Source: Jannaschia sp. CCS1
GTDB taxonomy: Bacteria; Pseudomonadota; Alphaproteobacteria; Rhodobacterales; Rhodobacteraceae
Length of the DNA stretch: 64,000 nt
Direction: 5' to 3'
NCBI RefSeq assembly: GCF_000013565.1
Contig: NC_007802.1
Span: 2,294,001-2,358,000 of the forward strand
This document shows, piece by piece, positions 11,678 to 15,836 of this stretch. A model generated the notes under the pieces. That model did no database searches. It saw nothing but the letters and a program-made list of their open reading frames with translations, and had not been told where the DNA came from. The position numbers and the translations under genes are program-made. Each line of letters begins with the position of its first letter. Position 1 is the first letter of the stretch.

Positions 11678-12124
11678 ATGAAGATATCTGTTTTCAACGG
11701 GCCGAACCTGAACGCTCTCGGGACCCGGGAGCCGGGCATTTACGGTGCCGATACCCTGGCCGATATCGAGGCGGCCTGCCGCACCACCGCCGCTGATCTG
11801 GGCGTCGATCTTGATTTCCTGCAAACCAACCAAGAAGGCGCGCTGGTCGATGCCTTCCACGCCGCGCGCGACACGTCAGATGGCGTGGTGATCAATGCGG
11901 GCGCCTATACCCACACCTCCATCGCGTTGCGCGATGCGATCAGCGCTACCGAACTTCCCACGGTGGAGCTGCACCTATCCAACACCCACGCAAGGGAGGC
12001 CTTTCGACATCATTCGATGATCGCGCCGGTCTGCGTGGGCCTCATCCTGGGCTTCGGCGCGTATGGCTACCCCCTCGCCGTCACCGCGCTGGTCCAGCAC
12101 CTCAAGCAAGGAAATGCGCCTTGA
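11678..12124 (+). CDS. aroQ: Type II 3-dehydroquinate dehydratase
   Basis: This shikimate-pathway enzyme converts 3-dehydroquinate to 3-dehydroshikimate. The 148-residue length is typical of the dodecameric type II family. Motifs in order are NGPNLNALGTREPGIYG (active-site loop with the catalytic Tyr and lid Arg), QTNQEGALVDAFH, INAGAYTHTSIALRDA and VELHLSNTHAREAFRHHS. ATG 11678 gives the family-standard N-terminus KISVFNGPN. Its stop is fused to the TTG start of the LuxR-type gene (TTGA overlap), so the two are translated together. Confidence 0.94.
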   Translation: MKISVFNGPNLNALGTREPGIYGADTLADIEAACRTTAADLGVDLDFLQTNQEGALVDAFHAARDTSDGVVINAGAYTHTSIALRDAISATELPTVELHLSNTHAREAFRHHSMIAPVCVGLILGFGAYGYPLAVTALVQHLKQGNAP

Positions 12125-12924
12125 AACATCTCCGCCCCTATCTGGAAATGACCACGGTCGAAGACCTGTGGTCCCACCACACGAAAACCCTCGCAAGTTA
12201 CGGATTTGACCGCGTTTTCTATGGCTTCAACGCCTTTCGCGGCGCGGGTCTGTATGACAACCCCGAAGACGCGTTGCTGCTGACCAACATGCCCACCGAT
12301 TATGTCGAGGCCTATGTGGATGGTGGCATGTTCCGGGACGGCGTGATGATGCGGTGGGCCACGGAAAACGTTGGCGCGGCGTCCTGGCGGGATGTCTACA
12401 TGGCGATGGCCAATGACGCCCCGTCCAAGGGCGAACTTGCCATGCGGGCGATGAACGAAAAGCATGATATTACAGCGGGTTACACGATCAGTTTCCCGAT
12501 GGCGATCAAGAACGCGAATGCAGGCATCGGCATGGCCGTCAAGAAGGGTATGGGCCAGGATGAGGCCGACGCGATCTGGCGCGAGCATGGCGAAGATATC
12601 GAGACGATCTGCCATGTGGCGCATCTGTGCATTCTGCAATTGCCCGCGACCGGCCAGCGCAAGCTGCTGACCCCGCGTCAGTCAGAGGTGTTGGAACTGG
12701 TGGCCGACGGCAAGACCATGGCCGATATCGCCCTGCTGCTGGAGCGCAATGTGGCCACGATCGAAAAGCACCTGCGCGGCGCACGCGATGCGTTGGGCGT
12801 GGAGACGACAGCACAGGCGGTGCGCAAAGCCTCCATCCTCAACCAGATCTTCCGCCTCGATGATCGTGACGATGTTACCCCGCGCCTGCCCCATATGGCA
12901 GGCTCTGTGGCAGACCGCGTCTGA
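12121..12924 (+). CDS. LuxR-family regulator with autoinducer-binding-like domain
   Basis: The 267-residue protein has an N-terminal autoinducer-binding-like domain (about 15-165) and a C-terminal GerE/LuxR helix-turn-helix (LTPRQSEVLELVADGKTM then NVATIEKHLRGARDALGV). In the sensor part, the stretch YVEAYVDGGMFRDGVMM aligns with the family's Y-x3-Y...DPV signature, but Gly replaces the usual Pro after the ligand-binding Asp. There is no luxI synthase in the window, so it would be a LuxR solo. The start is TTG 12121 inside the aroQ stop. The signal it senses, if any, is unknown. Confidence 0.85.
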   Translation: MKHLRPYLEMTTVEDLWSHHTKTLASYGFDRVFYGFNAFRGAGLYDNPEDALLLTNMPTDYVEAYVDGGMFRDGVMMRWATENVGAASWRDVYMAMANDAPSKGELAMRAMNEKHDITAGYTISFPMAIKNANAGIGMAVKKGMGQDEADAIWREHGEDIETICHVAHLCILQLPATGQRKLLTPRQSEVLELVADGKTMADIALLLERNVATIEKHLRGARDALGVETTAQAVRKASILNQIFRLDDRDDVTPRLPHMAGSVADRV

Positions 12925-13043
12925 GCCTGTCCTTTCCGACATGTCTTAACGGACGGTAAGGATTCCCGCATCTATCGCCACACCGCCGAATATCGCAAAA
13001 CAAGCGTGTTCCGTGAGTGATGGCAATTACAGCCAGGAACGTC

Positions 13044-13305
13044 GGGTCCGAAGGTCGCATTTTACGGCTTTCGGGCCCACCCAACCGGCCCATCGACCGG
13101 TCGGGGCTCGGAGCGGTTGGTCCATATTTTTATGACCAGAAAGCCGCTTCGGGGAAACGGATGGCGCGAGGTCACTCCCCCCTCGCGCGACCTGATTGAG
13201 ACGACACCATGGCTGTCCCCATGGTGAGCGATCCGGCGCAGTCTTGTCCCCCGCGCGCCGGACAATCGAGACGGCGCTGCCCCTGTCCCGGGCAGCGCCG
13301 TTTTT
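13044..13305 (+). ncRNA. Candidate structured RNA: six hairpins in a gene-free stretch
   Basis: The 413 bases between the LuxR-type gene and the gene ending at 13338 hold no convincing protein gene. They contain successive stems: 13044-13057 with 13065-13078 (14 bp, three G-U pairs favouring plus-strand RNA); 13081-13087 with 13114-13120, nesting 13088-13091 with 13104-13107; 13164-13171 with 13181-13188 (loop UCACUCCCC); 13205-13212 with 13219-13226; 13232-13239 with 13255-13262; and the terminator stem. The last three loops all expose UGUCC. A plus-strand sRNA, or a long structured 3' UTR of the aroQ-luxR message, would fit. I do not match it to a named RNA family. Confidence 0.5.
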
Positions 13306-13308
13306 CTT
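13271..13308 (+). terminator. Intrinsic terminator
   Basis: A perfect 12-bp GC-rich stem (13271-13282 with 13290-13301) closes the 7-nt loop CUGUCCC and is followed by TTTTT at 13301-13305, then CTT. It reads on the plus strand, so it ends either the aroQ-luxR transcript or a separate small RNA from this stretch. Confidence 0.85.
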
Positions 13309-13337
13309 GCGCAGACGTCCATGGCCTGGATCACGAT

Positions 13338-13754
13338 TTACAGCGCGCGCACCCGATTGTTTCGGGCGTTGTGCTCCAACTCAACCAATCCCAACAACTC
13401 CAGCGTCGGGGCGACATAGTTGGCAAAGCGCCCGCGATAGCCCTTGCGCAAGCCGTAATATCCACCGACCGGGTTGTCCCCGGACCGCGCCCAATGCTCC
13501 AACGTGCCCTCCTTGGTCGGCTTGCCTTCGTCGGCATTGCCAAGGGGCATCCAATCACCATGGGCTTTCAGCATCCCATGGGCATCCTCCAAGGCGCGCA
13601 GCTGATAGGACAGCCGCGTCTTTCCGACCTGCACAACCAGCGCCGCCGGGCTCTGGGCCTCGTCCTTCCAGACCAGAAATTCAGAGGACAGGGGCGGCGT
13701 TTTCAGGACCCAGGGGTCCTCCTGCGTGCCTGATCCATAGGTAACGTCCGTCAT
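13338..13754 (-). CDS. Conserved hypothetical protein, cytosolic, 138 residues
   Basis: I do not recognise a named enzyme family with confidence. The protein has no signal peptide or membrane segment; it begins TDVTYGSGTQEDPWVLKTPP and holds a hydrophobic LVVQVGKTRLSYQL strand pair, a central basic HAHGDWMPLG region and a hydrophobic C-terminus. It is coupled by an ATGA overlap to the SRPBCC-domain gene upstream, and the pair is divergent from the YafY-like regulator, which suggests a small regulated two-gene unit. Confidence 0.7.
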   Translation of the reverse strand: MTDVTYGSGTQEDPWVLKTPPLSSEFLVWKDEAQSPAALVVQVGKTRLSYQLRALEDAHGMLKAHGDWMPLGNADEGKPTKEGTLEHWARSGDNPVGGYYGLRKGYRGRFANYVAPTLELLGLVELEHNARNNRVRAL

Positions 13755-14170
13755 GATGCCTCCGCCGTTGTTTTGAGGGTTTGTGCAAATTTGGTGAAGC
13801 TGGGGGTCAGATCCGGCATGGATTTCGTGATCATCGGCGCGAGGAGGCCGGTGAAAACCTCCCGCATATGGAACGTGCAGCCTTGATCAGACGGGGTCAG
13901 CGTGAATGTGCGACGGCCCGTGAACAGCCCCAGTGGCATGCCCCCGGTCCAGACCATGGTTTGAGGCGGCGTGAGGGTGTCCACCCTCAGGGCAAAGGCG
14001 CGGTTTGGCGACACATCTGACCAGAGTTTGATCGTTGCGCCGGGCGCAATGTGTCCTTCAAACCGCAGGATGCCATAAGGTTTGGGTGATTTTGGCATGT
14101 CGTCCGTCAGGATCTTCCACACCCGCGCCGGATCTGCGGAGATGTCGATCTGGGTCTCATAGGCTGTCAT
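13751..14170 (-). CDS. SRPBCC (START/Bet v1-like) domain protein
   Basis: The 139-residue protein begins YETQIDISADPARVWKIL, the characteristic opening of polyketide-cyclase/START-like proteins, and runs through the beta strands around GATIKLWSDV and MVWTGGMPLGLFTGRRTFTL to the long C-terminal helix near the end. Such domains make a deep pocket for hydrophobic ligands. It is the first gene of the minus-strand pair, 74 bp from the start of the divergent HTH regulator, whose palindromic operator lies between them. A role in handling a small hydrophobic molecule is inference. Confidence 0.85.
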   Translation of the reverse strand: MTAYETQIDISADPARVWKILTDDMPKSPKPYGILRFEGHIAPGATIKLWSDVSPNRAFALRVDTLTPPQTMVWTGGMPLGLFTGRRTFTLTPSDQGCTFHMREVFTGLLAPMITKSMPDLTPSFTKFAQTLKTTAEAS

Positions 14171-14213
14171 TATTCATCCTTGTCTTGCGTCTACCTCCTC
14201 TACCAGCCCTTAT

Positions 14214-14230
14214 ATGACATCGTATGTCAT
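14214..14230. promoter_or_regulatory. Perfect palindromic operator in a divergent promoter region
   Basis: ATGACAT-CGT-ATGTCAT, a perfect 7-bp inverted repeat with a 3-bp spacer, lies 15 bp before the regulator's ATG 14245 and 44 bp from the divergent SRPBCC start. The position and symmetry fit an operator for the adjacent winged-helix regulator, controlling itself and the SRPBCC pair. The binding partner is inferred. Confidence 0.6.
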
Positions 14231-14244
14231 GTTTGAGGGTCACG

Positions 14245-14871
14245 ATGCGCGCCGCACGATTGTTGCAGATCCTGCTCATTCTCCAGAACCGGGGTCGTCA
14301 GACGTCAGTGCAATTGGGGGAGGAGTTGGAGGTTGCCCCGCGCACAATCCTGCGCGACGTCGACGCGATGTCTGAGGCGGGACTGCCGATCATTGTGCAC
14401 CAAGGAAATCGGGGCGGCATCGAGCTTGGGTTCAATTATCGCACGCGGTTGACCGGTCTGGCGAAGGAGGAAGCCCAGGCCCTGGGGCTTATTCTGGGGG
14501 CGGCAAACCCGATGATTGCAACCCTGGGGTTGTCGCAACCGGCCGCGCAGGCGCGCGCGAAACTGGTGGAAAGCCTGCCCGACAAGACCCGCGACCATGT
14601 CGCCGCCATGATGGCGCAGTTCAAATTGGTGGCGGACGATCCGGTGGATGATCCCAGGATCAGGGCGCTCGGGTTGGCCATTCAGGCCCAAACGGAGGTC
14701 CGGATTCGGTTCGCGTCAAGGTCTGAGCAGCTGATCCACCCCGTGGTCCTTGAGATGCGAGGCCCGCAATGGCGGGTGCGCGACGGGAGCACAGACTCGT
14801 GGATCGCGATGACGGATTGGGGGCGGATCAACATATCGGCGAAACGGTTTGCCTCTGCGAAAGTCGATTGA
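14245..14871 (+). CDS. YafY-type HTH transcriptional regulator
   Basis: The 208-residue protein begins with a DeoR/HTH_11-like winged helix (RAARLLQILLILQNRGRQTS, then APRTILRDVDAMSEAGLPI) followed by the region common in YafY proteins (GLAKEEAQALGLIL) and a C-terminal ligand-sensing part that looks like a shortened WYL-type domain (RIRFASRSEQLIHPVVLEM). I prefer ATG 14245, which has GAGGG 5 bases upstream; the in-frame ATG 14224 sits inside the palindrome and lacks a site. It likely represses the divergent SRPBCC pair and itself. Confidence 0.82.
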   Translation: MRAARLLQILLILQNRGRQTSVQLGEELEVAPRTILRDVDAMSEAGLPIIVHQGNRGGIELGFNYRTRLTGLAKEEAQALGLILGAANPMIATLGLSQPAAQARAKLVESLPDKTRDHVAAMMAQFKLVADDPVDDPRIRALGLAIQAQTEVRIRFASRSEQLIHPVVLEMRGPQWRVRDGSTDSWIAMTDWGRINISAKRFASAKVD

Positions 14872-14960: not shown

Positions 14961-15836
14961 TTAGCCCTTGGCGGTCTTGGCCACCTCTTCTGCGAAATTC
15001 TCGACCTTCTTCTCGATGCCTTCGCCGACTTCGAGGCGCACGAAACCGGTGATCTCGGCACTGGCTTCTTTGGCGGCCTCGCCCACGGTCAGGTCCGGGT
15101 TCACGACGAAGGCCTGGTTCACGAGGGTGATCTCGGACAGGTACTTCTTCATGCGGCCCACGATCATTTTTTCGATGACCTGCTCGGGCTTGCCGCTCTC
15201 CCGCGCGATGTCGATCTGAACCTGACGCTCCTTCTCGACCATCTCAGGATCGACGGAGGCCTCATCCAGCGACGCGGGGTTCACGGCGGCCACATGCATG
15301 GCGACCTGCTTGGCAAAGCCCGCGTCCCCGCCTTTGGTGGCGATCAGAACGCCGATCTTGCCCATGCCGTCAGCGGCGGCGTTGTGGACGTAGGAGACGA
15401 CGATATCGCCTTCCAGCTTCGCCATGCGGCGCACGCCCATGTTCTCGCCGATGGTGGCGACTTTCGCAGTGACGGTATCGGCGACGGATTTGCCACCCAT
15501 GTCGGCGGCCAGAAGCGCCTCGGTATCGTCTGCACCAAGGGCAACCTGCGCGATACCGGCAACCATCTCCTGGAATTCGGCGTTCTTGCCGACGAAATCC
15601 GTCTCGGAATTCACTTCAACAGCCACGCCGGTGGAGCCGGAGACGGCAACGGCCACAAGACCTTCGGCGGCCGTGCGGCCGGATTTCTTGGCCGCCTTCG
15701 CCAGGCCCTTGGTCCGCAGCCAGTCGACGGCGGCGTCCATGTCACCGTCGGTTTCGGTCAATGCCTTCTTGGCGTCCATCATGCCTGCGCCGGTCGTGTC
15801 GCGCAGTTCTTTTACCATGCTTGCAGTGATTGCCAT
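14961..15836 (-). CDS. tsf: Translation elongation factor Ts
   Basis: EF-Ts recycles EF-Tu by exchanging GDP for GTP. The 291-residue protein begins [20 protein letters not shown] (the UBA-like N-terminal domain with [18 protein letters not shown]) and contains the EF-Tu-contacting core [12 protein letters not shown], then the long dimerisation subdomain and a C-terminal helix. It is downstream of rpsB with a 78-bp spacer, the standard order. Length and motifs are ordinary for the family. Confidence 0.98.

Follow-up and report, generated by a model that had tools for sequence, protein, structure and literature searches.

A structured RNA widespread in Rhodobacteraceae that adjoins, and is probably switched on by, a LuxR-type regulator

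RESULTS

Conservation and covariation of a multi-hairpin RNA

An RNA of approximately 298 nucleotides (nt) with eight hairpins is predicted at positions 13008–13305 (forward strand) of a 64,000-nt stretch of the Jannaschia sp. CCS1 genome, which is called the window below. It represents a so far unnamed regulatory RNA that is widespread in Rhodobacteraceae and that adjoins, and is probably switched on by, a quorum-sensing-type (LuxR) regulator. Its repeated C-rich hairpin loops are likely to contact other molecules. We favor, with a probability of roughly 0.55, the explanation that this is a trans-acting small RNA, controlled by a LuxR solo, that acts through C-rich loops by pairing with messenger RNAs (mRNAs) in the manner of RNAIII.

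The extent of the element is defined by its fold, by homologs in the window genus, and by a covariance model (R1), for which 17 sequences were used, all from genera other than the window genus. The R1 match in the window begins exactly at 13008 (44.1 bits, E value 7.5e-11), and DNA homologs of the RNA are present in 13 of the 13 genomes of the window genus that were searched. Of the 394 Rhodobacteraceae genomes sampled, 248 (63%) have an R1 match at E ≤ 0.001, and at least 12 of these 248 themselves supplied sequences to the model. Because the search scored eight candidates per genome under strict filters, the negatives may include misses. A single match occurs in 243 of the 248 positive genomes, and two matches are present in the other five (G229, G276, G331, G361, and G382). 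In G276, the two copies (L124 and L125) lie on different contigs with a luxR homolog near each, which looks like a joint duplication of the RNA and its luxR. In a class-wide sample, R1 matches three of four Rhodobacteraceae genomes and none of the 285 from outside the family; the four family genomes were itemised, and 266 match-free genomes were taken as outside the family. A pattern made from the conserved 5′ block, allowing at most two mismatches, matches in 31 of the 394 family genomes, with one match (L039) being spurious, whereas the reversed control pattern gives none.

Base-pairing is supported by compensatory changes. Among 86 distinct sequences, double changes are seen in 23 of 26 pairs. 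The alignment contains 336 double-change cells, compared with 80.6 ± 11.4 in shuffles (0 of 500 reach the observed count) and at most 103 with slid partners, although the alignment was fitted to the R1 structure and is hence biased toward it, a bias that these controls offset only in part. RNAalifold applied to a plain alignment of 45 sequences yields four pairs and no compensatory change, which we attribute to misplacement of the variable stems in such an alignment. Folds of single sequences, which were computed for the first 170 nt, have a median z of −2.4 and fall below −2 in 66 of 110 loci, whereas for luxR coding controls the median is −0.1 and only 8 of 108 fall below −2. The regulatory RNA suggested by an initial annotation, which had named compensatory base changes in relatives as a test, is strongly supported by the covariance model matches and the covariation.

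The 110 loci used here and below are the distinct members of a set of 112, from which two loci repeating the first 100 nt of another were removed. The set leaves out L015–L021 (partial matches), L039 (a pattern match without luxR or tsf), L001 (which is the window), and L053 and L064 (shortened repeats of other loci).

Linkage to luxR and an apparently dedicated promoter box

The gene upstream of the RNA in the window (12121–12924, forward strand) encodes a LuxR-type regulator with Autoind_bind and GerE domains (PF03472, E 1.4e-30; PF00196, E 7.8e-07). In 105 of the 110 loci, the RNA is preceded within 500 nt by a luxR gene of the same orientation. The five exceptions are L100 and L124, where luxR is found at 668 and 773 nt, respectively; L067, for which only 388 nt of upstream sequence is covered; L125, where luxR is convergent and downstream; and L139, in which none was found.

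A dyad box, GGTAAGGATTCCCGCATCT, is located at 12955–12973 and starts 53 nt before the first nucleotide (+1) of the RNA. We propose this box as the LuxR binding site. In the family logo anchored on +1, it appears as GGTAAGGAATCCCNTACTT at −52 to −34, with the dyad centered near −43.5. A position near −42.5 is typical for LuxR-type activators. With at most four mismatches allowed, 105 of 110 loci have the box where it is expected, and it occurs at none of 880 control offsets; for loci retrieved solely through the RNA model, the values are 60 of 63 and 0 of 504. The eight-pair dyad symmetry averages 5.2 matches, compared with 2.8 at control places. In some genera, a second short dyad is present between the box and the −10 element (TTTACGCAGCGTAAA in L037).

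The −10-like element at 12995–13001 (forward strand) carries GCA at −13 to −11. Across the family, C is found at −12 in 91, A at −11 in 105, and T at −7 in 96 of the 110 loci. A consensus scan of 12850–13400 detects no sigma-70-type promoter, as expected of an activator-dependent promoter.

The box is nearly confined to the RNA. When 120 genomes were searched with at most one mismatch, 27 sites were obtained, and a control pattern gave nine. Seventeen sites are located 52–53 nt before the conserved core of the RNA and three precede divergent versions of it (L147, L151, and L168; L147 and L175 are one place). One further site is at a contig end, and six are elsewhere. Since near-exact sites mostly precede the RNA and those elsewhere are no more numerous than in the control, the box looks dedicated to the RNA, although just 26 of the 120 genomes contain a site this close to the consensus. 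A wider regulon for the box is not supported by these counts.

C-rich loops in the window and in other genera

The initial annotation described positions 13044–13305 as six hairpins, three of which share a UGUCC loop on unrelated stems. The minimum-energy fold indeed places UGUCC at 13214–13218, 13245–13249, and 13284–13288, each in a hairpin loop and on stems without relation to one another. Likewise, another hairpin exposes the C-rich loop UCACUCCCC (13172–13180) as described, and a T run (13301–13305) comes right after the last hairpin, where the annotation had placed a terminator. The number of hairpins was underestimated, as the fold gives seven in 13044–13303. The stretch itself stands as the 3′ part of the RNA, but its start does not, because the element begins at 13008 and the eighth hairpin, which is the most conserved, is there. 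This 5′ hairpin (H1), the dyad box, and the luxR partner are absent from that annotation.

The occurrence of UGUCC loops on unrelated stems exceeds chance. In 20,000 dinucleotide shuffles of 13044–13305, the mean UGUCC count is 0.24, and three or more copies appear at a frequency of 0.00075. None of 400 shuffles places any 5-mer in three hairpin loops, and none of 400 folds as well as the native sequence. For 12930–13320, the fold has a z of −7.5 and is equaled by 0 of 100 shuffles.

All 38 UGUCC occurrences in 12 distinct RNAs of the window genus are predicted to be unpaired, a count that is an underestimate for L006, which was cut short by the terminator finder. In other genera, the motif that persists is a different one. 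CAUCCCC is found in 68 of 98 RNAs compared with 1.4 expected after shuffling, whereas UGUCC is found in 25 of the 98, with 14.7 expected. Conservation in relatives therefore holds for the C-rich loop but not for UGUCC itself. AUCCCC is predicted to be unpaired in 66 of 70 cases, compared with 42 of 111 for other CCCC runs. We read the UGUCC hairpins as a probable genus-specific multiplication of the C-rich-loop hairpin that may have arisen by duplication or by convergence.

Divergent versions of the RNA

The C-rich loop is kept in divergent versions of the RNA. Among the 146 model-negative genomes, 20 were itemised, and a luxR ortholog (E < 1e-50) was present in four of these (G028, G034, G070, and G077). 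Four more genomes were selected for their box site, and three of them carry such an ortholog. In the resulting seven luxR-positive genomes, a C-rich run is predicted to be unpaired in a hairpin in six, the box (at most three mismatches) is present in four, and a run of at least four U residues lies within 75 nt in three. UCCCC is predicted to be unpaired in all six divergent versions examined. The C-rich-loop hairpin persists in versions without a recognizable H1, down to approximately 90 nt in L176.

Architecture of the RNA

H1 (13008–13040, forward strand, as are all the hairpins) is the most conserved block, and its 33 nt read GUUCCGUGAGUGAUGGCAAUUACAGCCAGGAAC in the window. Across the family, the pattern is GUUCCGUGAGUG[G/A]UGGC...GGAAC, and each position from +1 to +17 is kept in at least 107 of 110 loci except for +13 (G in 93, A in 16). 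The fold continues with H2 (13044–13078, loop CAUUUUA), H3 (13080–13105), and H4 (13107–13153), the last of which is the probable counterpart, matched by eye, of the covarying fourth hairpin (helix 5) of other genera. H5 (13158–13194) presents the loop UCACUCCCC, which by its position, also matched by eye, probably corresponds to the CUCAUCCCCA loop found in other genera. H6 (13205–13226) has a UGUCC loop, and H7 (13229–13268) has the loop CUUGUCCCCC. The terminator hairpin, which has a UGUCC loop, occupies 13269–13305 together with the T run. In many other genera, the expected transcript is shorter, at about 210 nt.

The LuxR partner and the gene neighborhood

The gene for elongation factor Ts (tsf; 14961–15836, reverse strand, read from its translation) is the convergent downstream neighbor in most loci, and it lies within 1500 nt of the RNA in 91 of 110. 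In the window, a DUF6855 gene, a polyketide-cyclase-like gene, and a third open reading frame are located between the RNA and tsf (13338–14871). The third was taken by eye for a DNA-binding regulator, and such intervening genes are absent in most loci.

LuxR proteins encoded in the order aroQ-luxR-tsf were classified in 2015 as "unknown group 1" LuxR solos, for which 25 genera are named and a function is left unassigned (PMC4338825). The window has this order, with three open reading frames intervening before tsf. No cognate luxI lies beside luxR, and the sole luxI-type match found in the genome is approximately 1.7 Mb away (L171, G000:C2:593508-593957). The substitutions listed for group 1 in the same source are W57Y, Y61F, D70I/G/A, P71V, and E178Q. 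Among 96 orthologs, the corresponding sensor-pocket columns, which were placed by the spacing of TraR, contain Y in 92, F in 83, and A in 82, and retain P in 92; with columns placed in this way, the window protein has Y, Y, G, and V. The orthologs thus appear to show the reported group 1 changes in part. Across these 96 orthologs, conservation is higher in the helix-turn-helix (0.85) than in the sensor domain (0.61), and a PDB search with the LuxR protein gives matches to DNA-binding domains only.

DISCUSSION

Proposed function and its alternatives

From these data, we infer that the RNA is transcribed, that the LuxR-type protein binds beside it and controls it positively in response to a particular kind of signal, and that the RNA pairs with mRNAs. 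In detail, 13008–13305 would be a small RNA that acts in trans and possesses its own promoter and terminator. In the manner of LuxR-type activators, the neighboring LuxR-type protein probably binds the dyad, whose center is about 43 nt upstream of the start, and would turn the RNA on upon a signal that is unlikely to be an ordinary acyl-homoserine lactone. Exposed C-rich hairpin loops may then pair with G-rich stretches of target mRNAs; apparently, most genera have a single such loop and the window genus has several (UGUCC and UCACUCCCC).

Several observations weigh against this explanation. The window lacks the common T at −7, and the dyad is without the CTG/CAG half-sites that known lux boxes carry. 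luxR occurs in four of the 20 itemised model-negative genomes. In L177, a luxR ortholog is located beside tsf with no recognizable RNA or box between them, so that the RNA seems to have been lost and the regulator kept. Complements of the loops, which the initial annotation had suggested seeking near start codons in the form of GGACA, are not notable there in 864 kb of the organism's own genome (40 stretches plus the window, with a crude gene caller and start choice). Before 667 predicted starts, GGACA ranks 158th of 724 pentamers and GGGACA 113th of 347 hexamers, the latter with eight occurrences and a ratio of 2.9 to coding sequence. AGGGAC reaches a ratio of 7.1 on seven cases, yet it resembles an ordinary Shine-Dalgarno sequence. 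The unremarkable rank of GGGACA argues against a general anti-Shine-Dalgarno role, whereas a few specific targets would escape this search. The proposed pairing with mRNAs is therefore modeled on RNAs with C-rich loops, of which RNAIII is an example.

A protein sponge, in which the C-rich loops titrate an RNA-binding protein that recognizes UCCC, as CsrB-type RNAs titrate CsrA, would likewise account for loops that recur on unrelated stems. One short loop on unrelated stems, in several copies that are all predicted to be unpaired in the window genus, is what such a sponge would display, and the UCCC core is common to different genera. However, we consider a sponge rather unlikely, because the folds examined for other genera mostly contain a single C-rich loop, which is few for this purpose, and because the flanking loop letters differ between genera. 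No candidate protein is at hand, and none was searched for. It is also unlikely that the RNA is real but is repressed by the neighboring LuxR, or that another protein binds the dyad. Judging from the logo, a site at −43.5 borders the −35 region, and binding there could also obstruct that region. Evidence against this reading is provided by the linkage of luxR to the RNA in 105 of 110 loci, by the number of box sites found elsewhere, which does not exceed that of control sites (six versus nine), and by the lack of a sigma-70-type promoter in 12850–13400.

The location between luxR and a convergent gene, with a terminator at its end, could indicate that the luxR mRNA ends in a structured 3′ part or that a cluster of terminators shields tsf, in either case without action in trans. 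We regard this as highly improbable given the near-invariant 5′ block, the promoter-like signals at fixed spacing, and the conservation of loops rather than of stems alone. A riboswitch or leader was rejected because the downstream tsf is convergent. A small protein was rejected as well, since H1 measures 30 to 35 nt in 108 of 110 loci with lengths that differ by single bases, and no reading frame therefore crosses H1 consistently.

Implications

Rhodobacteraceae are abundant in the sea. Tentatively, and at somewhat less than even odds, most of the family may share a two-part module that consists of a noncanonical LuxR receptor and a dedicated RNAIII-like effector RNA, which individual lineages would retune through the C-rich loops and not through the regulon. 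If this is true, then the receptor reads the signal and the RNA executes a post-transcriptional response, which is adjusted by multiplying and rewriting C-rich loops rather than by changing the genes that the receptor controls. What is new relative to the description of the group 1 LuxR solos (PMC4338825), whose main text does not contain the term "small RNA," is an adjacent RNA as their probable target. Such an apparently dedicated target makes the function of these proteins directly testable.

Comparison with known RNAs

No Rfam 15 family matches anywhere in the window at its gathering score. A search of 16 relative loci at E ≤ 1 gives three matches, all of which are below gathering and none of which is at the RNA. 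A Pseudooceanicola locus (L058:3207-3273) contains a match to SorX that is likewise below threshold (25.3 bits; gathering score 46.6). CcsR1 (RF02791; 15.4 bits versus 65.3), ar7 (RF02342; 25 versus 60), and 6C (RF01066; 30.9 versus 47) resemble the RNA in having C-rich-loop hairpins followed by a terminator, but these weak local matches are confined to its 3′ end, from 13220 on. The proposed connection to the CcsR RNAs of Rhodobacter with their CUCCUCCC loops consequently does not extend to family membership. StsR of Rhodobacter sphaeroides, with its reported 72 nt (PMC8307010), is set apart by length from the approximately 298 nt predicted here.

Among titles and the starts of abstracts, a literature search gave no paper on this RNA, and four spellings of its core were not found in the texts. 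Two surveys of small RNAs have no "tsf" in their main texts (PMC4809877, PMC5107571), and the parts consulted of two papers on solo or orphan LuxR genes of roseobacters do not name the RNA (PMC3824088, PMC4046655). A further study reports numbered candidates from a genome in which Rhodobacterales motifs were found, including HRC-8-4 at the cco locus and uORFC-8-2 at cysS (PMC8632094), and it is possible that the RNA was sighted earlier under a serial number in its supplements. A table in another source lists no LuxR with the W57Y change for Cereibacter sphaeroides WS8N (PMC11655674), which may explain why the RNA is absent from papers on Rhodobacter small RNAs.

With regard to control, the proposed arrangement resembles that of Lrs1 of Pseudomonas aeruginosa, a small RNA reported to be directly regulated by the LuxR-type protein LasR (PMC6739362). 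Lrs1 differs in being encoded upstream of the pqsA-E operon, away from its regulator.

With regard to design, the likeness is to RNAIII of the agr system of Staphylococcus aureus, a multi-hairpin RNA under a cell-signaling system that has several conserved C-rich hairpin loops and a UCCC signature in unpaired regions (PMC2837412). Unpaired UCCC loops are also present in the folds predicted here. The hosts belong to different phyla, and the targets of RNAIII are proven, whereas for the present RNA pairing is proposed. Furthermore, agr is a two-component system and not a LuxR system, and RNAIII also encodes a peptide, whereas the length of H1, which ranges from 30 to 35 nt, argues against a conserved frame across this hairpin. 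If the loops do pair with mRNAs, then the RNAIII design would have been invented independently in Proteobacteria, where this RNA would form an evolutionary series that leads from one loop to several.
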